IMG/VR virus record: IMGVR_UViG_3300046002_007999
Span: 1-22,119 of that record
Reading direction: 5' to 3' (one strand)
From: a virus
Length of the DNA: 22,119 bases
Below the pieces are notes generated by a model. That model made no database searches. It was not told the origin of the DNA and worked only from the letters and a program-made list of their open reading frames with translations. Made by a program: the position numbers and the translations under genes. Positions 2,017 to 22,012 of the stretch are shown in pieces (within the stretch, counting starts at the first letter, position 1; every line of letters starts with the position of its first letter).

Positions 2017-2049
2017 CGGAATATACAAATAATTTTTTAATTACCCAAG
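2017..2049 (-). promoter_or_regulatory. Phage promoter (Bacteroidota-type) for the peroxiredoxin gene
   Basis: On the minus strand a -33 CTTGG (2049-2045) is separated by exactly 19 nt from a -7 TATATTCCG (2025-2017). ATG is about 22 nt downstream of the first T of the -7 box, leaving a leader of roughly 10 nt (TTAAATAAAAAAC). Spacing and sequence match the other promoters of this window, although the -7 box is one base short of TATATT(T/C)ACG. Confidence 0.6.
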
Positions 2050-2050
2050 T

Positions 2051-3082
2051 TTATTTTAAAAGGAAATATGACCAATGATTCCATAATATTTCCTCGGTAG
2101 TTCTTTCTACTTGAGTAAGTAATTTTTTATTATGATAAATTTCTATTCTCCATGATTTTATATTACCCTGATCAAATGACCAATAATATAAAGGACCAGC
2201 TCCAATTTCATTAGATACTACTAAGTTATCATCTGTATAAATTTTAACATCAATTTTTTCATTTTTAATACTATTAGGGATAACAAAATATATTTTATCT
2301 CCATTTTTTTCCGTAACAATATCTGGTTCAATTGTGAATTTGCTTTCTAAACCAGGTATTTGAATATTACCTAATGAAGATATACCTAACCATTCACTTG
2401 TAAATAAATCTCTAGGTCTAGTGTTTACCATAATACCATTTGGAGATGGGTTATATAAAAATTTAGATGCAACAAATCCCTCTAATGAATAAGCATTAAC
2501 TTTTTTACCTACTTCTAAGTATTCTTCAGGTGTTGTAATTGTATCTAATGATGTATTAAAGAAATCTATATTACCTCCAAATATTGATGTTACTGGAACT
2601 ATAAGATTAGATTGGTTTTCAATCATAAACCAATAATCTTTTTGATCAAATTGATATTTAGTAAGTTCAGATTCTAATATTTTATGGTCTTCACTGTTTA
2701 AAAATGTATCACATTCAACATATAAAAAATGAGTATAATGTTTATTTTTTAGTAACCATAAAGCATTTTTTAAATTCATTAATATAGAATATGAATGTGC
2801 TCCTAATTTATTACCATTATTTGTTTGATATGTTATTTTATCATCAGCATAGAATATAGCTAATGAGGATGGTTCTGGGAATTTTAAAGTATAATTTTCA
2901 TCTGAGTAGATAAAATATTTACTTACTTGTTGTAATTCTGTACTTACAGGTGTATGTGAAGTTAAACATACATCATAACCATGTCGTTTAAAACTTTCAA
3001 TTGTTAAGCTAACTAAAGCTGAATCTAAATGGTTTTGTGGATAACTACCTACAATAACACATATATTATTTTTGTTTATCAT
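2051..3082 (-). CDS. Probable GT-A-type glycosyltransferase with C-terminal beta domain
   Basis: A 343-aa protein. The N-terminus (NNICVIVGSYPQ) starts a nucleotide-sugar-binding Rossmann-like fold, and YVECDTFLNSED at 121-132 has the position and look of a GT-A DxD-type metal/nucleotide-sugar motif at the end of a hydrophobic strand. The C-terminal third (about 255-343) is predicted to be beta-rich with many alternating hydrophobic residues and Trp, possibly an added sandwich domain. The exact family is not clear; acceptor and sugar are unknown. ATG 3080-3082 lies inside the 58-aa gene upstream (17-nt overlap), so the two are coupled, and with the GT2 gene before them they form a three-gene unit. 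Confidence 0.65.
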   Translation of the reverse strand: MINKNNICVIVGSYPQNHLDSALVSLTIESFKRHGYDVCLTSHTPVSTELQQVSKYFIYSDENYTLKFPEPSSLAIFYADDKITYQTNNGNKLGAHSYSILMNLKNALWLLKNKHYTHFLYVECDTFLNSEDHKILESELTKYQFDQKDYWFMIENQSNLIVPVTSIFGGNIDFFNTSLDTITTPEEYLEVGKKVNAYSLEGFVASKFLYNPSPNGIMVNTRPRDLFTSEWLGISSLGNIQIPGLESKFTIEPDIVTEKNGDKIYFVIPNSIKNEKIDVKIYTDDNLVVSNEIGAGPLYYWSFDQGNIKSWRIEIYHNKKLLTQVERTTEEILWNHWSYFLLK

Positions 3083-3242
3083 ATTCTTCGTTGCATTTTA
3101 CGTATGCTAATATAAAATGGTCATATGGATTAGCATTTGGGTTTGTAACTTTATAAGTTAATATTGTTTCCATCATTTTATTATAAAACCCCTTTTGATG
3201 AGCTTTATGAAGTAATTCTTCTATAATTTCTTCATTTGTCAT
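3066..3242 (-). CDS. Small protein between two glycosyltransferases, 58 aa
   Basis: This 58-aa ORF (MTNEEIIEELLHKAH at the start, NEEYDKQK at the end) fills what would otherwise be a 156-nt gap. Its ATG overlaps the stop of the upstream GT2 gene as ATGA, and its 3' end overlaps the next gene start by 17 nt, strong signs of genuine coupled translation. It looks all-helical and acidic at its N-terminus, with no membrane segment. Function is unknown; position suggests an accessory to the flanking glycosyltransferases, which is inference only. Confidence 0.75.
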   Translation of the reverse strand: MTNEEIIEELLHKAHQKGFYNKMMETILTYKVTNPNANPYDHFILAYVKCNEEYDKQK

Positions 3243-4351
3243 ATTGCTGTAATAAAATAAACTTCATAACCACCTACTAACCAACCATAACCTCCAAATG
3301 AATTATTAATTTTTAAATGGACTTCATCATAATCTAAATTTTCTCTTTGATCTAACTTAAATTTAATAAATGTTCCTTTATTTGTTTGATCTAAAATTAA
3401 TTTAATATTATCTAATTCATTTAAAGTTTTTTCATTAATATGAACTATAACTTCATCAAATATTTCTTGTGTATTATAATCAAAATATAAATCGTAATCA
3501 AAAAATAATTCTTTTAATAATTGTCTTTCATATGGTTTAATATCTTGTTTAATATAAAGTATTTTTTTACGACCTTTATTAATATTAAATTCTCCTAAAG
3601 CAAAATCGCGTGCTTGTTTAGTAATAGGTAAATAATATAATGAACATGAAACTTTATCAGGATTATTTAAATAAGGAAATTTTGATTCAATAAATAAACG
3701 TTCATTTTCAATATCAGCATATTGTTCAGCTGTACGCCCTGGTTCTCTTGAAAATGTATCTTGAGAATAATAGTATTTATATAACACTCTAGGTAAATAT
3801 AACCATTTACCTTTAGTTTCAACATGACGAACTATATTTGTATCATTTTGATACCATTTTAATATACCGTTATCAAATTCATCAATTATATTTCTCCAAG
3901 CACGTCCCATTGGAGTATAATTAAATGTAGGTGAGTTTTCAAAATCATATGTACCACCACCTTGGATTTCAATCCAATTACCATTAGCATCTACAGTATG
4001 AGATAAACAACTAATACCTGCTACTTCTGGGTGTTTTAAAAAGAAATGATTATAAATTTCTATAATTTTAGGATAAGCATAATCATCACTATCAAATTGA
4101 ATTATTATATCTCCTGTACATCCACGTTGTGGGTTATAAAAACATTCTTTTTTACGGGACTGGTTATAATATTTTACTCTAGGATCTTTAGCACAAATTT
4201 CTCTTAATATTTCCTCAGCATTATTATAATCTGAAAAATCGTCTGTAACAATCCATTCCCAATCAGTATGGGTTTGATCTAGAATTTGTTGGTATAAATT
4301 TTCAACTAAATGACTTCTTCTATAAAATGATGTGCTAATGCTAAATTTCAT
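3239..4351 (-). CDS. Family 2 glycosyltransferase (GT-A fold)
   Basis: A 370-aa protein with a canonical N-terminal GT2 domain. KFSISTSFYRR opens the first strand, WEWIVTDDFSD (32-41) is the nucleotide-binding aspartate region, and IIIQFDSDDYAYP has the DSDD metal/sugar-nucleotide motif at 87-90. The domain runs to about residue 230; the remaining 140 residues are not recognised and may form an acceptor-binding region. It would transfer a sugar from an activated nucleotide donor, with acceptor unknown. It is the first gene of a three-gene unit with the 58-aa ORF and the GT-A-like protein, preceded by an ATATTTATAA element. Confidence 0.88.
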   Translation of the reverse strand: MKFSISTSFYRRSHLVENLYQQILDQTHTDWEWIVTDDFSDYNNAEEILREICAKDPRVKYYNQSRKKECFYNPQRGCTGDIIIQFDSDDYAYPKIIEIYNHFFLKHPEVAGISCLSHTVDANGNWIEIQGGGTYDFENSPTFNYTPMGRAWRNIIDEFDNGILKWYQNDTNIVRHVETKGKWLYLPRVLYKYYYSQDTFSREPGRTAEQYADIENERLFIESKFPYLNNPDKVSCSLYYLPITKQARDFALGEFNINKGRKKILYIKQDIKPYERQLLKELFFDYDLYFDYNTQEIFDEVIVHINEKTLNELDNIKLILDQTNKGTFIKFKLDQRENLDYDEVHLKINNSFGGYGWLVGGYEVYFITAI

Positions 4352-4367
4352 TTAAATAACTACTGGG

Positions 4368-4385
4368 TTTATAAATATGTTTAAA
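4368..4385 (-). promoter_or_regulatory. Possible promoter element, ATATTTATAA type
   Basis: The minus strand reads TTTAAACATATTTATAAA about 27 nt before the GT2 start at 4351. A nearly identical block occurs before the gene starting at 6877. It sits at the distance of the main -7 boxes but no TTTGG is found 19 nt upstream, so it may be a weak or differently regulated promoter. Confidence 0.4.
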
Positions 4386-4386
4386 T

Positions 4387-4686
4387 TTAGTCTAAGAAAT
4401 GTCTTTCGTGAGGTCTTAACACTGCTTCGCGTCTTGGGTGTTGAGCTGAGTAGATTATTTTACATGTATTTTCTTTAGGTGCTACTTTATTAGTACCATA
4501 GTAATAAACACTACCATCATATGGTTGGTGATCATCACCTACACCAAATCTACGTTCAGTATCATAACTTCTAAATTCGTTAGGTGTAACCCTATACCAT
4601 TTTCCGTTAGGTAATTTCACCTCAAGACATTTCTGTGTAGGGAAATCATAATGTAATTTACCTGTAAATCCTTTTTTCTCTGCCAT
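4387..4686 (-). CDS. Unknown protein, 99 aa
   Basis: Not recognised. The 99-aa protein is basic and rich in Tyr, His and Arg, with a beta-rich centre (KCLEVKLPNGKWYRVTPNEF; KVAPKENTCKIIYSAQHP) and a positively charged end (RREAVLRPHERHFLD). No signal peptide, membrane segment or metal-binding cluster stands out; the single pair of cysteines is widely spaced. It starts 2 nt after the stop of the 89-aa gene and is the last gene before the GT2 transcription unit. Confidence 0.75.
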   Translation of the reverse strand: MAEKKGFTGKLHYDFPTQKCLEVKLPNGKWYRVTPNEFRSYDTERRFGVGDDHQPYDGSVYYYGTNKVAPKENTCKIIYSAQHPRREAVLRPHERHFLD

Positions 4687-4688
4687 AA

Positions 4689-4958
4689 TTAAAACGGTAA
4701 GTCTTGATCATCATAAGGTGTAACATCCCAAAAATCATTATGCATTTCATAATCAGCTGTATCTTTATTGATAATAATACCCTCAAGATAATAAATCATT
4801 TTTTCAATTTCTTCTTTACTTTCAATTACATTTATTGAAGTACTATTACTAAGTACAATATGTGTATATGATGTTTCAAAAGATATTTCTGAAATAGCTT
4901 TAATGTTAACAAAATGTTTAATTTTATTTCCGTAACCGGTTAATTCTAAAAATTTCAT
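4689..4958 (-). CDS. Small protein with SSB-like acidic C-terminal tip, 89 aa
   Basis: An 89-aa protein. The first 60 residues look like a compact beta-beta-alpha domain (LELTGYGNKIKHFVNIKAI, then THIVLSNSTSINVIESKEEI and a helix), somewhat reminiscent of FlbD-type small domains. The last 25 residues are acidic and apparently flexible, ending in DDQDLPF. That ending closely matches the acidic tip of bacterial single-stranded DNA-binding proteins (DDDIPF type), which docks replication and repair proteins. It may therefore be a DNA-metabolism protein or an SSB-tail mimic; no OB fold is obvious. ATG 4956-4958 overlaps the preceding stop as ATGA. Confidence 0.75.
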   Translation of the reverse strand: MKFLELTGYGNKIKHFVNIKAISEISFETSYTHIVLSNSTSINVIESKEEIEKMIYYLEGIIINKDTADYEMHNDFWDVTPYDDQDLPF

Positions 4959-5089
4959 AATTGGTCGTATTGAATTTTATTAATTAAATCTTCAAGTTTT
5001 ATAATAGCCATGTTATGGTCCATATCTTCCATTAGCATAAGAATCTCCTGGAGTTCATTATACAATGTTTCTTTAGTTTCTGGATCCAT
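4955..5089 (-). CDS. Small acidic helical protein, 44 aa
   Basis: Unrecognised. I choose ATG 5087-5089 (MDPETKETLYNELQEIL) because it comes 1 nt after the stop of the upstream gene and the ORF then ends with an ATGA overlap into the next gene. A longer 68-aa reading from GTG at 5159-5161 would overlap the upstream gene by 71 nt and use a rare start, so it is less likely despite a chance GGAGG before it. The peptide is helical, acidic in the middle (EDMDHN) and could form a small coiled structure. Confidence 0.6.
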   Translation of the reverse strand: MDPETKETLYNELQEILMLMEDMDHNMAIIKLEDLINKIQYDQL

Positions 5090-5090
5090 A

Positions 5091-5318
5091 TTAGTCAAGT
5101 AAAAATCCGTTATTTTCAATTGAATACCAAACACGTTCTTTCCAGAGGTCAACTCGTACACCTCCTAATTCAACATTGCCTCGTAAGGTAGCTGTTCCTA
5201 AAATAACTAAACAATAATCAAGCAAATCATTTGCTTCATCCATGTTCTTAGCTTTCAAAGCTTCATTAGCTTTTCTCCAATAATTTTTGATTGATGTATC
5301 TAGATCTAAATGATTCAT
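5091..5318 (-). CDS. Unknown helical protein, 75 aa
   Basis: A 75-aa protein with two predicted helices in its first half (TSIKNYWRKANEALKAKNMD, then a leucine-rich LLDYCLVILGTATL) and a Trp-containing end (VDLWKERVWYSIENNGFLLD). The AKNMDEANDLLDYCL stretch has the look of a TPR-like helix pair, but it is too short to call. No function is recognised. ATG 5316-5318 is preceded by an A-rich leader ending in AGTTATG, and the gene lies 20 nt downstream of the 115-aa gene in the same direction. Confidence 0.75.
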   Translation of the reverse strand: MNHLDLDTSIKNYWRKANEALKAKNMDEANDLLDYCLVILGTATLRGNVELGGVRVDLWKERVWYSIENNGFLLD

Positions 5319-5338
5319 AACTGTTTTTTTAGGTTTAA

Positions 5339-5686
5339 TTAATTAAGTACGTTTTGATTATCTTTTACAAATGTAAATGCAATGGTTGGATACCAGTAAC
5401 GGTCATCATCCATTTCAAAATCACCAATATCAAGTAATTTAACTTCATAGCCATCAATACGAATATCAAGAGCTCGTTTAATGTCTTCAATTTCTTTGGA
5501 ATTGAAGTTTCCCATTTGGTTTACTCGGAAATACATTCCTTCTTCACTACCAATATGAGCACCTGCTAATACAGGCATACCATCGGTGTGGTCTCTTTCC
5601 ACTTCGATGCCTTTTAAACCTAATAAATGGGCAACTGATCTAATCAGACTTCCATTTTCTTTTTCAAACTTAATTTGTTTGTTCAT
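5339..5686 (-). CDS. Unknown protein, 115 aa, first gene of an operon
   Basis: Not recognised. The 115-aa protein is acidic and probably alpha/beta: an N-terminal helix (GSLIRSVAHLLGLKGIEVE), a glycine-rich turn (AGAHIGSEEGMYFRVNQMG), a helix (SKEIEDIKRALDIRI) and a C-terminal strand region (YEVKLLDIGDFEMD; YPTIAFTFV). No cysteine clusters, membrane segment or signal peptide. It is the first gene behind the strong promoter at 5732-5765 and carries the shared leader AAAATAAAGGTTATG, so it probably heads the five-gene unit down to 4387. Confidence 0.78.
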   Translation of the reverse strand: MNKQIKFEKENGSLIRSVAHLLGLKGIEVERDHTDGMPVLAGAHIGSEEGMYFRVNQMGNFNSKEIEDIKRALDIRIDGYEVKLLDIGDFEMDDDRYWYPTIAFTFVKDNQNVLN

Positions 5687-5731
5687 AACCTTTATTTTTT
5701 ATATTATTAATTTATTTAATTCCTTATTATA

Positions 5732-5765
5732 CGTGAATATACGAACAATCTCTCAGTTCTCCAAA
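5732..5765 (-). promoter_or_regulatory. Phage promoter (Bacteroidota-type) for the 5686-4387 operon
   Basis: The minus strand has TTTGG (5765-5761), a 19-nt spacer ending in GTTCG, and TATATTCACG (5741-5732). The TTTGG lies just before the stop codon of the upstream 46-aa gene. About 45 nt of AT-rich leader lie between the expected transcription start and ATG 5686, longer than for the other promoters. Confidence 0.75.
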
Positions 5766-5893
5766 TCTTTCTTCAGATTTTTGCGAGAATAGTTTTTCTT
5801 TGATTGCTTAGTACGTGTAATCATTTTACGTCGTACTATTTGAGCTACGTGCCTAACACTCAAACCGTCTAATTTTCTATCATCTTTTATCAT
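5753..5893 (-). CDS. Small very basic protein, 46 aa
   Basis: A 46-residue, strongly basic protein (MIKDDRKLDGLSVRHVAQIV, then RRKMITRTKQSKKNYSRKNL and a KKDLEN end). A longer reading from ATG 5954-5956 would translate straight through a terminator hairpin and promoter, so I place the start at ATG 5891-5893. The -7 box of the promoter lies only 12 nt before that ATG, so the message may be leaderless. The charge suggests nucleic-acid or ribosome binding; the REST of the sequence gives no family. It is possible that this is not a protein-coding gene at all but leader sequence. Confidence 0.5.
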   Translation of the reverse strand: MIKDDRKLDGLSVRHVAQIVRRKMITRTKQSKKNYSRKNLKKDLEN

Positions 5894-5895
5894 AC

Positions 5896-5929
5896 CGTAA
5901 ATATACGAAAAAGGGGTGGCAAAGCCACC
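5896..5929 (-). promoter_or_regulatory. Promoter overlapping a terminator, for the 46-aa gene
   Basis: TATATTTACG (5905-5896) on the minus strand exactly matches the -7 box of the other promoters, and CG precedes it as elsewhere. At the expected -33 position stands GGTGG (5929-5925), a 3-of-5 match to TTTGG, inside the terminator stem. The expected transcription start falls at or next to ATG 5893. Confidence 0.5.
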
Positions 5930-5931
5930 CC
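5908..5931 (-). terminator. Intrinsic terminator after the 7346-5972 unit
   Basis: On the minus strand a perfect 8-bp stem GGGGTGGC / GCCACCCC (5931-5924 and 5920-5913) with a TTT loop is followed directly by TTTTT (5912-5908). It stands 40 nt after the stop of the 152-aa gene at 5972. It is by far the most GC-rich stretch of this AT-rich window and the only convincing intrinsic terminator seen. Confidence 0.85.
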
Positions 5932-5971
5932 TGTTGTTCATTTGGAATGATTCCAAATAATATTATTTTTA

Positions 5972-6430
5972 TTATGTAGATTTATATTGAAATCCTTTAC
6001 CAGACATAAGTTGAGCACCTTTTTTATCTAACCATTTTTTAGCTTTATTTAATGATGGTGATAGATTATATCTTCCATAAGATTTTTCACCAGGAATATC
6101 TCCTAATTCTTTTCCATTTTTATCATATACTAAAGTTTTAATATAAAAAAAATAATGGGATTTATTATCAAAATCTAATTTTTCACCTTTAGGAATCATT
6201 ACATTACCAACAGTTTTAAGTTGAAAAGTTAATCCATCAGGTGTAGTATATGTTTCATTTTTTAACTCAAGATTGTAAATATCATCCTTAGTTTTATTAT
6301 CAAATTCTGATTTTTCTGTTTTTTTAGAAATAACTTTATATGGTTGGTTTTCTTCGTTTAAACGAGATTGAAAAGTTACTTTATTTTCTACTAGCCATTT
6401 GCTAGAGTCAAAGTTATCTGCTTTTTTCAT
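5972..6430 (-). CDS. Unknown protein, 152 aa, last gene before the terminator
   Basis: Not recognised. The 152-aa protein is lysine-rich, soluble and likely beta-rich in the centre (YTTPDGLTFQLKTVGNVMIP; SHYFFYIKTLVYDKNGKEL) with a C-terminal helix (SLNKAKKWLDKKGAQLMSG). No signal peptide or membrane segment. It starts 6 nt after the stop of the 146-aa gene and is followed by the only convincing terminator, so it closes this transcription unit. Its closest link is positional: it belongs with the 146-aa, 144-aa and SWIM-protein genes, all of similar size. Confidence 0.8.
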   Translation of the reverse strand: MKKADNFDSSKWLVENKVTFQSRLNEENQPYKVISKKTEKSEFDNKTKDDIYNLELKNETYTTPDGLTFQLKTVGNVMIPKGEKLDFDNKSHYFFYIKTLVYDKNGKELGDIPGEKSYGRYNLSPSLNKAKKWLDKKGAQLMSGKGFQYKST

Positions 6431-6436
6431 ATTATA

Positions 6437-6877
6437 TTATTTAATAATACCAGCTTTATATTTCATTTGACGTACAAATGCTTCGTTTAATTCTTCTTCT
6501 TTTGTAATTACTTCTTTATCATTACCAACATGATAAGCTTCCATAGTTTGGCCTGGAACAACACTAAATCCAAAAGCTTTAGCTGATTCAACTGCTTGTG
6601 GATTTTGACCTCCTATACTAAATTCAAATTCTTCTTGAAAATTATCTTCATCTCCTGGGTCTAATCCAAATTTATAATCGTATACAGCAAAAGGTTCCAT
6701 TCCGTTTTTAGGAATAATACGCCATTCATAATTTGATTTTCCATCAGATGATGGTCCGAAAGATTGAACTGTAGCTTTACCTGAATCTTTAATATATTCG
6801 GCTATACTTGAAATACCATATACTGAATCTTTAATGGTTCCAACTCTATGAGAGTGGTTAGGGAATTTTAATGCCAT
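6437..6877 (-). CDS. Unknown protein, 146 aa
   Basis: Not recognised. The 146-aa protein starts MALKFPNHSHRVGTIKDSVY and contains a possible DNA- or ligand-binding beta region (SNYEWRIIPKNGMEPFAVYD), an acidic loop (GLDPGDEDNFQEEFEFSIGG) and a C-terminal helix (EEELNEAFVRQMKYKAGIIK). The mix of a short helix-forming N-terminus and repeated aromatic strands is typical of compact phage accessory proteins. ATG 6875-6877 is preceded by an A-rich leader (TTATAAAAAACATG) and, 33 nt up, by an ATATTTATAA element. Confidence 0.8.
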   Translation of the reverse strand: MALKFPNHSHRVGTIKDSVYGISSIAEYIKDSGKATVQSFGPSSDGKSNYEWRIIPKNGMEPFAVYDYKFGLDPGDEDNFQEEFEFSIGGQNPQAVESAKAFGFSVVPGQTMEAYHVGNDKEVITKEEELNEAFVRQMKYKAGIIK

Positions 6878-6900
6878 GTTTTTTATAATTTAATTATATG

Positions 6901-6916
6901 TTATAAATATGTTAAA
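6901..6916 (-). promoter_or_regulatory. Possible promoter element, ATATTTATAA type
   Basis: Minus-strand TTTAACATATTTATAA overlaps the stop of the 144-aa gene and lies about 33 nt before ATG 6877. It nearly duplicates the element before the GT2 gene at 4351. No TTTGG stands 19 nt upstream, so this is at best an extra or weaker promoter inside the unit. Confidence 0.4.
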
Positions 6917-7346
6917 GAGAATATTTATTACGGAAAGCTTCAATGTAACTCTCACCAACACCTAACTCTACTATAATAGCTGTTTCTGGAACACCTGGTA
7001 GTGATGGAGCTGATAATATATAGTCAACATTTTCGTTATTCCAAATTTTCATTTTAGTTTGAGCATTTGAACGATTTGATGTTTTAAATACCATTACTAC
7101 AGGTTGACCATTATATGCTTTACCTTTATCCGCTTTAAATGTTTCATGTTTATAGTCTTTAGGATAAGTTACTTCGGTTTTATAAGGACCGTTAGCATTT
7201 TTTGACTTGTCATAGTAAAAAGTAGTTGATCTACCTTGATCCCTATAATCTTTGTTTGGGTACTCGTAACACGTTAGTTCCCATTTTTCTCTAGCTTCAG
7301 TACTTCCCTCAGCTGGTCTACCTCTACGTTCTGTTTTTTCTATCAT
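6912..7346 (-). CDS. Unknown protein with AT-hook-like N-terminus, 144 aa
   Basis: Not recognised as a family. Residues 7-13 (RRGRPAE) include the RGRP core of an AT-hook, a minor-groove DNA-binding motif, so weak DNA binding is possible. The rest is a beta-rich, Tyr- and Lys-rich domain (STTFYYDKSKNANGPYKTEV; QPVVMVFKTSNRSNAQTKMK; TAIIVELGVGESYIEAFRNK). It heads a unit behind the promoter at 7364-7397 and uses the leader AAATAAAGGTTATG. It could equally be a structural or regulatory accessory protein; one AT-hook core is short enough to arise by chance. Confidence 0.8.
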   Translation of the reverse strand: MIEKTERRGRPAEGSTEAREKWELTCYEYPNKDYRDQGRSTTFYYDKSKNANGPYKTEVTYPKDYKHETFKADKGKAYNGQPVVMVFKTSNRSNAQTKMKIWNNENVDYILSAPSLPGVPETAIIVELGVGESYIEAFRNKYSL

Positions 7347-7363
7347 AACCTTTATTTATATAC

Positions 7364-7397
7364 CGTGAATATACGAACTTTATTTTACAATTCCTAA
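7364..7397 (-). promoter_or_regulatory. Phage promoter (Bacteroidota-type) for the 7346-5972 unit
   Basis: Minus strand: TTAGG (7397-7393, 4 of 5 to TTTGG), a 19-nt spacer ending in GTTCG, and TATATTCACGG (7373-7363). ATG 7346 follows after a short leader, about 27 nt from the first T of the -7 box. The -33 lies inside the end of the SWIM-protein gene. Confidence 0.7.
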
Positions 7398-7841
7398 TTT
7401 TTGTTGAACTTCTTTCATATGCTTGCACTGTCTGTCTTTTGCTCTGTACTGACCAGCACAATTACATTTTACTTTATTACCTATTACTTGAACAACATAA
7501 AAACTACCTGGTTCGCTTTTTGATTCGAATTTCCAAGTTTGTGGTTCTTGTTTTACTGTTACTGATTTTTTAATTTCAGGTTTAATCCACTCAATATCAT
7601 TTAATGTAGTTTCAGGTAATACCTCCATCCATGCTGGTACTATATAAGTTTTACCAGTAGTTGGTGATACAATTATTGATGGTGGTAATAATGGATGTTC
7701 ATAAGTGTATTTAAAACGACTTACACTAACTGATGTTCCAAAACCTGGACCATGTGAAAATGGTTTATTATCTAGAGTTGCAATGATGCGATGTCTCCAA
7801 TTACCATACTTGTTTTTGTTACTAAATTTCCAAAGTGCCAT
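7380..7841 (-). CDS. SWIM zinc-finger protein
   Basis: A 153-aa protein whose C-terminus carries a SWIM-type zinc-binding motif, C126-x-C128-x10-C139-x-H141, preceded by the typical WKFESKSEPGSFYVVQV lead-in strand. SWIM fingers bind zinc and take part in DNA or protein contacts. The first 95 residues form a separate unrecognised region with a glycine-rich loop (SHGPGFGTSVSVSRF) and proline-rich strands. Such small SWIM proteins occur in several large phages without known function. It has its own promoter (7865-7898) and the shared leader AAATAAAGGTTATG. Confidence 0.82.
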   Translation of the reverse strand: MALWKFSNKNKYGNWRHRIIATLDNKPFSHGPGFGTSVSVSRFKYTYEHPLLPPSIIVSPTTGKTYIVPAWMEVLPETTLNDIEWIKPEIKKSVTVKQEPQTWKFESKSEPGSFYVVQVIGNKVKCNCAGQYRAKDRQCKHMKEVQQKLGIVK

Positions 7842-7864
7842 AACCTTTATTTATTTTTATTATA

Positions 7865-7898
7865 CGTAAATATACGAACAATATTTACGGTCTCCAAA
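7865..7898 (-). promoter_or_regulatory. Phage promoter (Bacteroidota-type) for the SWIM protein gene
   Basis: Minus strand: TTTGG (7898-7894), a 19-nt spacer ending in TTGTTCG, TATATTTACG (7874-7865). ATG 7841 is about 33 nt from the first T of the -7 box. The -33 lies inside the last codons of the methyltransferase gene upstream. Confidence 0.75.
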
Positions 7899-8502
7899 TT
7901 CCTATGCCACCAAAGTGTTCTTTTTGACCAAAACACGTGGTTTTACCAGAAGATTTAATAGTAACTATATTAGTTTTTGACCCATATGGTATATCTTGCC
8001 AAAATTTATATACTTCACCACCAGCACCATCTCTAAATATATGTTCTGGGTCAATGTCGTGGAATACTATATAACCACGTGGTGATAATAATTTTTGGTA
8101 TAATTCAAAATCACGTTGTACACCATCATATGAATGATCACCATCAATAAAAATTAAATCATATTGTGGACAAAATTCCTTAACTTTATCTCTTGTTTCT
8201 GGGGTTTGTGAATCGGCTATGAATAATTTAAAATCTTCATCATACATCATATAATGAGACCAAATTGTACGTCCATTATCTTCTAAATCAACAGCAACTT
8301 TTTTACCTGTTGAAAGTTGAGACATAATATGGAATGAACTACCTTTAAAACCAATTTCTAAAATGTTGTGGGGTTGAAAACCTTTAATCCAATAAGCCCA
8401 AGTAGTTATTTCTTCATATACTTGTTGAAATAAAGTAGGAGCTATAAGAAAATCCTTTACATGATAATCAACTAATTTTTCTACATTTATATCTTTATTC
8501 AT
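7885..8502 (-). CDS. SAM-dependent methyltransferase (Methyltransf_24-like)
   Basis: A 205-aa class I methyltransferase fold. Motif I is LEIGFKGSS (48-56), an acidic residue follows at the end of strand 2 (VAVDLED, 69-75), and the family-typical FIDGDHSYDGV (118-128) and IVFHDIDP (145-152) follow. This set is characteristic of Methyltransf_24-type enzymes in polysaccharide and secondary-metabolite clusters, which methylate small molecules or sugars. The start of this gene overlaps the 48-aa ORF upstream by 8 nt. It is 3.4 kb from the nearest glycosyltransferase in either direction, but its family matches two genes of the glycan blocks, at 13597 and 20546. Confidence 0.88.
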   Translation of the reverse strand: MNKDINVEKLVDYHVKDFLIAPTLFQQVYEEITTWAYWIKGFQPHNILEIGFKGSSFHIMSQLSTGKKVAVDLEDNGRTIWSHYMMYDEDFKLFIADSQTPETRDKVKEFCPQYDLIFIDGDHSYDGVQRDFELYQKLLSPRGYIVFHDIDPEHIFRDGAGGEVYKFWQDIPYGSKTNIVTIKSSGKTTCFGQKEHFGGIGIWRP

Positions 8503-8641
8503 AACTATTTTTATTTTCTTCTTTAACTAATTGAAGATCTAAAGTAAGAGCTATACACAATCTTTTTAATGCTCCCCAATCATCCATTGCTATATTAATT
8601 AAAACATCGTCTGGGATTGAATCAAAAAATGGTATTTTCAT
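8495..8641 (-). CDS. Small protein, 48 aa
   Basis: A 48-aa ORF (MKIPFFDSIPDDVLINIAMD, a DDWGALKRLC core and an EENKNSYE end) fits between the 46-aa basic protein gene and the methyltransferase, overlapping the latter by 8 nt. It has one predicted helix containing WGALKRLCIALTLDLQLV. No family is recognised; its amphipathic helix could mediate oligomerisation. The leader AAAAAATAAGTTATG resembles that of other starts in this window, which supports translation. Confidence 0.68.
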   Translation of the reverse strand: MKIPFFDSIPDDVLINIAMDDWGALKRLCIALTLDLQLVKEENKNSYE

Positions 8642-8658
8642 AACTTATTTTTTATTAA

Positions 8659-8799
8659 TTATCCTTGTCCTACGTTAGGTTTTTTATAGTTAGTAGCATT
8701 TTTTGCTTTTGATACTTTTGTTTTAGCGTGAACTCCAGGACGAGATACTACTGCTTTTGGTTTTTTTGCTACTGCGGTTTGTGTTTTAGTTTTTGCCAT
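8659..8799 (-). CDS. Small lysine-rich protein, 46 aa
   Basis: A 46-residue, Lys-, Ala- and Thr-rich protein (MAKTKTQTAVAKKPKAVVSR, PGVHAKTKVS and a KKPNVGQG end) with no hydrophobic core, probably disordered and DNA- or RNA-binding. Similar tiny basic proteins are known to me from Bacteroidota genomes and phages, but none has a clear role. The gene follows the endolysin gene after 31 nt and is preceded by a 7-bp hairpin that ends 2 nt before the ATG. Translation as a protein is likely given the clean start and stop, but I would not assign it a job. Confidence 0.75.
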   Translation of the reverse strand: MAKTKTQTAVAKKPKAVVSRPGVHAKTKVSKAKNATNYKKPNVGQG

Positions 8800-8801
8800 T
8801 G

Positions 8802-8824
8802 TTAGGGTTTTTAAGTTACCCTAA
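8802..8824 (-). promoter_or_regulatory. Hairpin immediately before the 46-aa basic protein gene
   Basis: Minus strand TTAGGGT (8824-8818) pairs perfectly with ACCCTAA (8808-8802) around a 9-nt A-rich loop. Only CA separates the stem from ATG 8799. There is no T-tract after it, so it is not an intrinsic terminator; it could be a protein-binding site or a translational control hairpin. Confidence 0.35.
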
Positions 8825-8830
8825 TACATA

Positions 8831-9394
8831 TCAAAACAAATCTTTTAGTTTTTCTTTTTCAACTACATTTTTAAGTACTTGAACATAATTACCTGCTTGA
8901 GCATAATTTTGACCTAAATAAGCATAGTAATCTTCTTCAGTACTAATTCCACCTAAATACCTACATTGATAAAAAGCATAATCATAAACAGATTGATACC
9001 AATCATCATAATAAGCATGGCCATTTTGAGTACCATTAGCTGTATTAATTCGAACTGTTGCTTGTTTCATTCCAAACAAGTTGTGGTTTTCTTTACATAC
9101 ATTACTTGTCCAATGTCCAGTCTCAATAATTGATTGGGCCATTACAATGTGAGGAAATTTTACATTTAATCGTTCAAGTTCAGCTGCAAATTTTTCTTGA
9201 GTGAACTTATTTTTTTCAGCAGCTAAATTTACTACCAACAATTCTCTTTCTTGATCATCTAATGCTTTAATTCTAAGTAAACGTCCAGCACTAAATGTAA
9301 TAAGTGATACCACAATAACTGTTCCTAGAGCAATCTTGTGGGCCAATTTGGTTTTAACAAATTGTAGTTTGTTTGGGTCGTATTTATAAAACAT
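8831..9394 (-). CDS. Membrane-anchored N-acetylglucosaminidase (GH73 type), likely endolysin
   Basis: A 187-aa protein. Residues 20-40 form one hydrophobic segment (KIALGTVIVVSLITFSAGRL) after a basic N-terminus, consistent with a signal-anchor or signal-arrest-release sequence. The C-terminal 110 residues are a glucosaminidase domain: SIIETGHW carries the likely catalytic glutamate E91, and NLFGMK at 105-110 is a family hallmark; a YDDWYQSVYDYAFYQ helix follows. It would cleave the glycan strands of peptidoglycan, most likely for host lysis. A virion-associated or envelope-remodelling role is possible. It has its own promoter (9409-9442), so its expression is timed separately. Confidence 0.9.
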   Translation of the reverse strand: MFYKYDPNKLQFVKTKLAHKIALGTVIVVSLITFSAGRLLRIKALDDQERELLVVNLAAEKNKFTQEKFAAELERLNVKFPHIVMAQSIIETGHWTSNVCKENHNLFGMKQATVRINTANGTQNGHAYYDDWYQSVYDYAFYQCRYLGGISTEEDYYAYLGQNYAQAGNYVQVLKNVVEKEKLKDLF

Positions 9395-9408
9395 AACTTT
9401 TTTATTTA

Positions 9409-9442
9409 CGTAAATATACGAACAACCATTCAGGTATCCAAA
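9409..9442 (-). promoter_or_regulatory. Phage promoter (Bacteroidota-type) for the endolysin gene
   Basis: Minus strand: TTTGG (9442-9438), a 19-nt spacer ending in GTTGTTCG, TATATTTACG (9418-9409). ATG 9394 is about 24 nt from the first T of the -7 box with the leader AAATAAAAAAGTTATG. This is the best-matching copy of the consensus together with the one at 7865-7898. Confidence 0.78.
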
Positions 9443-18070: not shown

Positions 18071-18262
18071 TTATTCTTTAATATCTAAATTGTTGTGGTT
18101 GTGTACTTTTTTTCTAAAATCTTCATCGGTAAGGTACAAATGAATTGTACGATCGGCAAGCTTTTGTAGTGAAAATTTGTATTTTACACAGGCAATTTTA
18201 AAGTTGTCAAACAAGTCGCTTTTTACTTTCACGCTTGTTAACGTCATATCTTTTTTTTCCAT
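18071..18262 (-). CDS. Ribbon-helix-helix-like small protein, 63 aa
   Basis: A 63-aa protein with the layout of a CopG/Arc-type ribbon-helix-helix: a beta strand (TSVKVKSDLF, about 9-18), helix A (DLFDNFKIACVKYKF), a turn, helix B (SLQKLADRTIHLYLTDEDF) and a basic tail. Such proteins bind DNA as dimers and are often transcription repressors or antitoxins; no toxin gene is next to it. The gene lies 44 nt after the nuclease stop and before the GT-B genes, with the A-rich leader AATAATAAAAGCTATG. Confidence 0.7.
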   Translation of the reverse strand: MEKKDMTLTSVKVKSDLFDNFKIACVKYKFSLQKLADRTIHLYLTDEDFRKKVHNHNNLDIKE

Positions 18263-18286: not shown

Positions 18287-18319
18287 TATAAATATATAGG
18301 GATTCCTTAAAGTAACCCC
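18287..18319 (-). promoter_or_regulatory. Possible promoter before the ribbon-helix-helix gene
   Basis: Minus strand has TATATTTATA (18296-18287), 8 of 10 to the window's -7 box, about 34 nt before ATG 18262. At the 19-nt position upstream stands GGGG (18319-18316), only partly matching TTTGG. The -33 is inside the end of the nuclease gene. It is weaker than the other promoters. Confidence 0.35.
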
Positions 18320-21182: not shown

Positions 21183-21593
21183 TTATTTTTTCCATTTACC
21201 TTTCATTACTAACATAGCAATAATACCATAGTTAGCAATATCTATAAAACTATCAATTAATGCTTCACCTTCAACATAATTTTTACCATCACGTTTAATA
21301 AGATTTTTTAAGCGATTAATTTTATCATTACAACGAAGCCAGATACCTGTAATAGATAATTTTATATCTTCAGGTTCTTCAAGATTAGTACCTAATGAAA
21401 TATTTCCTAAACCATAGTCCAACATTTTTTTAGCAAATAATTCATACTGTTCTTGTTGAGTTTCTTTCCATGCTTTAGCTAAAGTAGGATAAGTATTTTC
21501 AAAATCTTCTACTGCTTTTTGAGTATTTTCACTTATAGGAATTGATGGTGAATCAAATATTGTAACTCCCCAAATGTCTGAATTTTTTGTCAT
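21183..21593 (-). CDS. DUF1599/Nmad1-like nucleotide-metabolism protein
   Basis: A 136-aa protein. The KKMLDYGLGN motif (55-64), the R-C-NDKINRLKNL helix (87-98) and the EALIDSFIDIANYGIIAML stretch (E110, D114, D118) match the DUF1599 family, also called nucleotide modification associated domain 1. Members are thought to be all-alpha NTP-pyrophosphatase-like proteins of phages, often seen in DNA-modification settings, with acidic EXXD metal ligands. The first 45 residues are a variable N-terminus. It overlaps the gp62-like gene by 4 nt, linking it to DNA replication. The assignment is by motif recall. Confidence 0.75.
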   Translation of the reverse strand: MTKNSDIWGVTIFDSPSIPISENTQKAVEDFENTYPTLAKAWKETQQEQYELFAKKMLDYGLGNISLGTNLEEPEDIKLSITGIWLRCNDKINRLKNLIKRDGKNYVEGEALIDSFIDIANYGIIAMLVMKGKWKK

Positions 21594-22012
21594 ATAACTA
21601 ATTCTTTTAATAGTTTTTTAATTTCTTTTTCTTCAATACCACGTTGTAAAAGAATATGTTCTACACCTTCTTTTCGTAAAATATACGTAAATTCTTCTGC
21701 TTCTCCAAGCCCACACGTAAAGTGATCAGCAATATGAACTAGCAATGAATCAGACGTTTTTTTACGAGTAGATTTAATGTATTTTAAAAATATTTTCTTT
21801 TTTGGGATCATAGATTTATATGTGTTATAGATGGTTTCTTTTTCAGTATAAGGGAATTTTTGTACAACATTTGTTATATCAATATATCCCTCATACATAC
21901 TAAGAAATCTATGAACCATGTAAGAATTGAACGAAGCTTGTTGATCTTCTGTAAAACTCTTCCAATCTTTCTTCTCGTAAGTAACCTGATTCAGCCAGTC
22001 GAATATTGTCAT
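21590..22012 (-). CDS. 62: Clamp-loader small subunit, T4 gp62-like
   Basis: A 140-aa helical protein resembling phage clamp loader A subunit (gp62) proteins of T4-like phages. Family-like blocks include YMVHRFLSMYEGYIDITNVV, the basic IPKKKIFLKYIKSTRKKT and the C-terminal ILLQRGIEEKEIKKLLKEL. In T4, gp62 binds the gp44 ATPase and the complex loads the gp45 sliding clamp. The protein is shorter than T4 gp62 (187 aa), like the versions in other aquatic T4-like phages. It would act with a gp44-like ATPase, presumably encoded outside this window to the right. The call is from motif recall. Confidence 0.75.
   Translation of the reverse strand: MTIFDWLNQVTYEKKDWKSFTEDQQASFNSYMVHRFLSMYEGYIDITNVVQKFPYTEKETIYNTYKSMIPKKKIFLKYIKSTRKKTSDSLLVHIADHFTCGLGEAEEFTYILRKEGVEHILLQRGIEEKEIKKLLKELVI

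Follow-up and report, generated by a model that had tools for sequence, protein, structure and literature searches.

A stretch of viral DNA of 22,119 nucleotides (nt), which is one record of the IMG/VR database and is called the window below, carries on its minus strand six short sites of a common pattern, which an earlier note had taken for a phage promoter shared by six transcription units. All six sites are present in the sequence and the genes downstream of them are as that note described, from a peroxiredoxin gene to an endolysin-like gene; the gene for a protein of 46 amino acids (aa) among them extends from 5753 to 5893. As claimed, the distance between the 5-nt -33 box and the sequence TATATT is exactly 19 nt at every site. 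According to our analysis, the sites are probably promoters of an early/middle class, which would be read by the host RNA polymerase (RNAP) with the Bacteroidota housekeeping sigma factor. The -33 box is TTTGG at 5732, 7865 and 9409, CTTGG at 2017, GGTGG at 5896 and TTAGG at 7364. GTTCG does usually precede the -7 box (four of the six sites), with TTTCG at 5896 and TTTG at 2017. The box ending YACG (Y, T or C), which had been attributed to all six sites, is found at five of them, the exception being the site at 2017, which reads TATATTCCG. With CTTGG, TTTG instead of TTCG before the box and CCG after it, this site is the weakest of the six.

The coding strand of the window has five copies of the exact core TTCGTATATTYACG and the opposite strand none, with a mean of 0.000 in 500 dinucleotide shuffles, which agrees with the earlier view that the matches are not due to chance. 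The two boxes, (TTGG or TAGG or GTGG)-N19-TATATT, were found seven times on the coding strand versus none on the opposite strand (shuffle mean 0.65, maximum 3), and spacings from 10 to 27 other than 19 give at most two matches on either strand. A similar contrast was observed in fetched viral loci when only the two boxes were imposed, with 469 sites at spacing 19 versus 6-20 for each neighbouring spacing. The base frequencies of this set are biased, as the -33 box had been a condition for fetching half of the loci, but this does not explain the spacing contrast for the forms that were not imposed. The contrast was confirmed by control scans of IMG/VR that are free of the bias: the full pattern TTTG-N15-GTTCGTATATTYACG is present in at least 119 stretches of this database, whereas the pattern read backwards and the pattern with a spacer 1 nt longer have no match there. 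In a nonredundant set of 130 sites, for which only the core was used in fetching and the -33 box was left free, TTGG is located at the single offset of -18 in 88, and in no more than six at any other offset.

In 40 IMG/VR records, GTATATTYACG lies nearly always on one strand, the reversed control giving 0-1 match per record. Of 371 sites, 351 are followed within 110 nt by the start of an open reading frame (ORF), the median leader being 21 nt. Most of the 469 spacing-19 sites have GTTCG or a near form before the box and YACG after it. In the consensus, YTTGGATACCCGAAATATT-GTTCG-TATATTYACGG, positions -36..-33 are occupied by TTTG and positions -12..-5 by TATATTYA; across all sites, no covariation of the -33 box with the spacer was detected above that of shuffled columns. 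The motif is not equally frequent on the antisense strand or inside genes, and its strand and spacing specificity over whole genomes, the 469 sites versus 6-20 and its virus specificity (see below) support the proposal of one shared phage promoter that marks one expression class. The core contains a small inverted repeat, CGTA-N4-TACG, as might be expected of a repeated protein-binding element or of an element for packaging or replication. The sites are, however, strictly gene-oriented and 5' of starts, they have -33/-7 geometry and in a subset terminators lie directly upstream, so that a non-promoter element is highly improbable; chance is excluded by the window shuffles and by the reversed and +1-nt controls in IMG/VR.

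The relationship with other phages was analysed using a T4-like relative of 163,571 bases (G001), which has in common with the window the gene order PD-(D/E)XK nuclease, glycosyltransferases, SWIM protein and endolysin-like gene, and whose large terminase shares 59% identity with that of the Flavobacterium phage immuto (vB_FspM_immuto, genus Immutovirus). TTGG-N19-TATATT occurs 36 times in G001 and never antisense, and other spacings give 0-4 matches in the two genomes. The early class of immuto, TTG[GC]-N19-TATATTTAGGT, has the same spacing of 19 and is likewise confined to one strand, with 33 matches to TTG[GC]-N19-TATATT versus 1 antisense. According to k-mer counts in G001, TTCGTATATT is present in 19 of the 92 upstream regions of the non-structural region (0.01 expected), and ATATTTATAA in 18 of the 95 upstream regions of the structural regions (0.15 expected). 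The latter motif, found 24 times in forward and never in reverse orientation, has zero information at -33. Early and late sites are distributed differently across the structural blocks of G001 (Fisher p = 7e-6, with block borders drawn after the sites had been seen). Because of these post hoc borders, a second test used immuto, whose blocks were defined by the annotation that its depositors had provided; there, the structural blocks hold none of the 20 early and 15 of the 28 late sites (p = 6e-5). A sub-class ending in TATATTAAAT adjoins several metabolic and replication genes in both genomes. The motif belongs to a large group of T4-like phages with Flavobacterium-type hosts, and is probably the early/middle class of a two-class system of which ATATTTATAA is the late class, the timing being deduced from gene content and genome position.

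Table 1. Putative promoter elements and the 46-aa gene in the window
Feature	Position	Strand	Context
Early-class promoter TTTGG-N19-TATATTTACG, GTTCG before -7 box	9409..9442	-	5' of endolysin-like gene 8831-9394; no mismatch to the consensus
Early-class promoter TTTGG-N19-TATATTTACG	7865..7898	-	5' of SWIM-type gene 7380-7841; leader end ATAAAGGTTATG
Early-class promoter TTAGG-N19-TATATTCACG	7364..7397	-	within 3' end of SWIM-type gene; 5' of gene 6912-7346
Promoter fused to intrinsic terminator, GGGGTGGC-TTTG-CCACCCC-TTTTTCGTATATTTACGG	5896..5929	-	5' of 46-aa gene
46-aa basic protein gene	5753..5893	-	ATG at predicted +1 of promoter 5896-5929
Early-class promoter TTTGG-N19-TATATTCACG	5732..5765	-	5' of the unit of small genes that begins with 5339-5686
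Degenerate early-class promoter CTTGG-N19-TATATTCCG	2017..2049	-	5' of peroxiredoxin gene 1392-2003
Seventh early-like match CTTGG-N19-TATATTTTACG	21676..21709	-	within ORF 21590-22012; absent from the earlier note's list
Late-class-like box ATATTTATAA, core TATTTATA	4370..4377	-	just 5' of glycosyltransferase gene 3239-4351
Late-class-like box ATATTTATAA	6902..6909	-	5' of gene 6437-6877
Late-class-like box TATTTATATA	18287..18294	-	5' of gene 18071-18262

Some of the early-class sites of the window are also found next to orthologous genes. The G001 orthologue of the SWIM gene (107678) has such a site at 107644, and a relative's gene (L112) whose product begins MEKTERRG carries the same site as gene 6912-7346, the product of which begins MIEKTERRG. 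The -33 box of the promoter at 5732..5765 is located within the 3' end of the 46-aa gene. The seventh match may be an internal promoter or a coincidence; it spells CTTGGAGAAGCA, as the G001 early sites do. The late class was defined in G001 and immuto, ATATTTATAA not being significant in the window taken alone. A single GTATATTTACG on the plus strand, at 25-35, is not preceded by TTC and was taken as a chance occurrence.

The full pattern has six matches in bacterial and archaeal genomes totalling 257 Gb, which is about the number expected by chance, and the core TTCGTATATTYACG was found in 3 of 149 Flavobacteriaceae genomes. Two of these contain one intragenic copy each, without a -33 box. 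The third, the metagenome-assembled genome (MAG) G041, contains five copies, and those inspected have the complete phage motif and are located on small contigs (loci L194, L241 and L244) that look like co-binned phage sequence. Together with the isolate immuto, whose host is Flavobacterium sp. LMO8, this MAG points to hosts of the Flavobacteriaceae type. GTTCG with the spacer consensus was present in none of the host genomes examined, and 360 kb of host DNA did not resolve the host -33/-7 spacing. No match was obtained by megablast of the whole window against INPHARED or by tblastn with the SWIM protein, and no description of the motif was found in the open-access literature searched. Promoters of extracytoplasmic function (ECF) sigma factors typically combine a rigid spacer with a CG-containing -10 box, and in general form the rigid spacing and the CGTA within TTCGTATATT resemble them. 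An ECF regulon should, however, leave the motif in host genomes, where only the two intragenic matches are seen, MAG G041 aside, and the -33 TTTGG and TATATT are housekeeping-like. Reading of the promoter by such an alternative host sigma factor is thus very unlikely.

These phages encode a protein of 234-270 aa whose gene is always located at the same place ahead of the baseplate genes; in immuto it is the ORF around 78130-78828. The matches of this protein are weak, to PHROG 234, a late sigma family, in 12 of 24 records and to sigma region 2 in 14 of 24. No match to the sigma region 4 families was found in this protein or elsewhere in the motif-bearing phages, and PHROGs alone gave it no name. 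The only match of its profile in a PDB sequence search (E = 0.02) was unrelated and was rejected. An AlphaFold2 model of the protein, with a mean predicted local distance difference test score (pLDDT) of 66.8 and good residues from 19 to 119, aligned to T4 gp55 in the open complex (7d7c_F) with a VIA-align Z score of 10.4 over 108 residues. This score alone is modest for a helical fold, but nearly all listed matches are sigma factors. Comparison of the modelled fold settled the protein as a sigma factor of the gp55 type, with the fold of region 2 and no region 4. Such a factor suits the late box with its lack of a -33 element, but not the six sites, which therefore most likely use the host sigma factor.

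The virus specificity of the motif and the presence of a gp55-like sigma gene could also suggest that this sigma factor, or a phage-encoded polymerase, reads the early motif. However, a -33 box at a fixed distance would go unread by a protein without region 4, and the structural genes have their own -33-less motif. Motif-bearing phages gave no match to T7-type RNAP, a weak negative since no control genome matched either, and multisubunit phage RNAPs were outside the search. We consider a phage-encoded reader of this kind very unlikely. The two largest G001 proteins were examined as candidate virion polymerases and rejected, one being a collagen-repeat protein and the other having only HINT/intein-type matches. 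The protein of 2722 aa that is encoded at G001:139391-147559 (L205) has HINT/intein-type matches towards its C-terminus.

If the six sites are read by the host enzyme, they may be very strong host-type promoters, by analogy with the 'uber' early promoters of T4. Region 4 of the host sigma factor, sigma-ABfr, would contact the -33 box and region 2 the -7 box, and the conserved spacer and GTTCG would provide extra contacts that allow the phage to outcompete host promoters and that fix the spacing. The structural genes would later be switched on from -33-less ATATTTATAA boxes by the phage gp55-like sigma factor without region 4. The host sigma consensus is -33 TTTG / -7 TAHHTTTG, with a start 4-5 nt after G-5, and the promoters of Flavobacterium johnsoniae hardly ever deviate from this G-5 (PMC6847099). 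Like the sigma-ABfr promoter, the phage motif has its boxes at -33 (TTTG) and -7, T-12, A-11, T-8 and T-7, and no G at -10 and -9. It differs by T or C instead of T at -6, by A-5, and by a strong -33 box and rigid spacing where the host promoter has a weak -33 box. The resemblance to Bacteroidota promoters noticed earlier thus holds for the positions of the boxes, but the ACG is not an addition to them, since it replaces the nearly invariant G-5 of the host.

Several observations weigh against reading by the host sigma factor. A is found at -5 in 86% of the 469 sites, so that nearly all sites depart from TAHHTTTG with its G-5 at the very position that F. johnsoniae promoters conserve (PMC6847099). 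The exact core TTCGTATATTYACG is practically absent from 148 Flavobacteriaceae genomes, and the host sigma factor is thus not seen to use this box in its own genomes. The label 'early' is based on where the genes lie in the genome and on what they encode, and the spacer could be read by a phage activator that has escaped recognition. Two accounts of A-5 and of the lack of the motif in host genomes can be given: the deviation is compensated by the strong -33 box together with the spacer and GTTCG, or the host enzyme is assisted by a phage factor. The second case would correspond to a middle-type promoter that needs a phage activator or co-activator, functionally analogous to MotA/AsiA of T4, or an RNAP modifier delivered with the virion. 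This factor would read GTTCG and/or the CCCGAAA spacer, and the host RNAP would then accept A-5. A dedicated reader fits the conserved spacer and GTTCG, the zero spacing tolerance, A-5 in place of G-5 and the absence from host genomes, and the TATATTAAAT sub-class of G001 and immuto suggests that early and middle variants may coexist. However, the MotA C-terminal domain (MotCF) was found in none of nine related records, the T4 control being positive and AsiA being outside the search. Moreover, the phages have almost no plain host-type TTTG-N19-21-TAnnTTTG promoters and hence nothing else visible to start infection; the class expressed first could not be one that depends on an activator. We therefore regard a middle-type promoter as possible but rather unlikely. 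The same applies to the idea that a large clade of Bacteroidota phages uses a promoter which the host sigma factor would not read alone, a phage factor, virion-borne or early-made, retargeting the host RNAP to a 36-nt element with zero tolerance, A-5 and a spacer that is read.

At the site at 5896, the GGTGG -33 box is located in the 5' arm of a hairpin, and the T-run meets the -7 box, running into TTCG. From its sequence, the mRNA of the 46-aa gene is apparently leaderless, and homologous 46-aa genes at three other loci (L209, L062 and L161) show the same ATG/+1 geometry and the same terminator-promoter arrangement. Fused terminator-promoters, in which one gene's intrinsic terminator overlaps with the promoter of the gene that follows it, are also seen at L076 and L160. 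They account for 22 of 318 viral sites, compared to a mean of 0.85 (maximum 3) with shuffled flanks. The commonest end of the early leaders before ATG is ATAAAGGTT, exactly so in 122 of 351 sites. It places AAAGG 2 nt before the start codon, for example before 5686, 7346 and 7841 (minus strand). Shine-Dalgarno sequences are said to be absent from Bacteroidota. The heptamer AAAGGTT precedes 6 of 92 non-structural and none of 95 structural genes of G001. No general folding signal for 5' leader hairpins was found over all sites (mean z 0.02); several of the G001 (L198-L206) early leaders, for example those at 109710, 116299 and 118920, have a small stem-loop of the GGC-GCGAA-GCC type right after the promoter. 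Region 18607-36971 of immuto (L216, MW353177.1) contains queuosine-pathway genes and a gene for DpdA (DNA guanine transglycosylase), suggesting that its DNA may be 7-deazaguanine-modified.

Bacteroidota have an unusual housekeeping sigma factor and few mapped phage promoters. A sharply defined, virus-specific promoter of 36 nt with a matching late class offers a means of predicting which genes are early and which are late across thousands of uncultured phage genomes, and could flag phage contigs that were binned together with host sequence, MAG G041 being an example. It is also a strong candidate promoter for Flavobacterium genetic tools. The question whether the host sigma factor accepts A-5 or is retargeted becomes testable, and a phage factor, if it exists, would mean sigma reprogramming in a phylum for which none is described in the open-access literature searched.

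The early promoters of T4 are host-type, have additional conserved regions, outcompete host promoters and are described as excellent matches to the host elements (PMC2988021). The six sites have much in common with them: in a T4-like genome, two host-sigma boxes at a fixed distance are accompanied by extra conserved blocks, and they serve non-structural genes, distinct from a late class with its own phage sigma factor. The differences lie in the boxes themselves (TTTGG and TATATTYACG), the conserved GTTCG and spacer, the 19-nt spacing and the departure from the host consensus at -5. T4 late promoters, TATAAATA, are used with the sigma factor gp55, and the second motif described here, as distinct from the six sites, is likewise a -33-less box of 8-10 nt that occurs with a gp55-like, region-2-only sigma factor, its box being TATTTATA instead of TATAAATA. 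The early-region promoters of immuto, which are unannotated in its record, share with the six sites the 19-nt spacing, the single strand and the non-structural genes, but their commonest -33 box is TTGC and their box ends in TTTAGGT instead of YACG.

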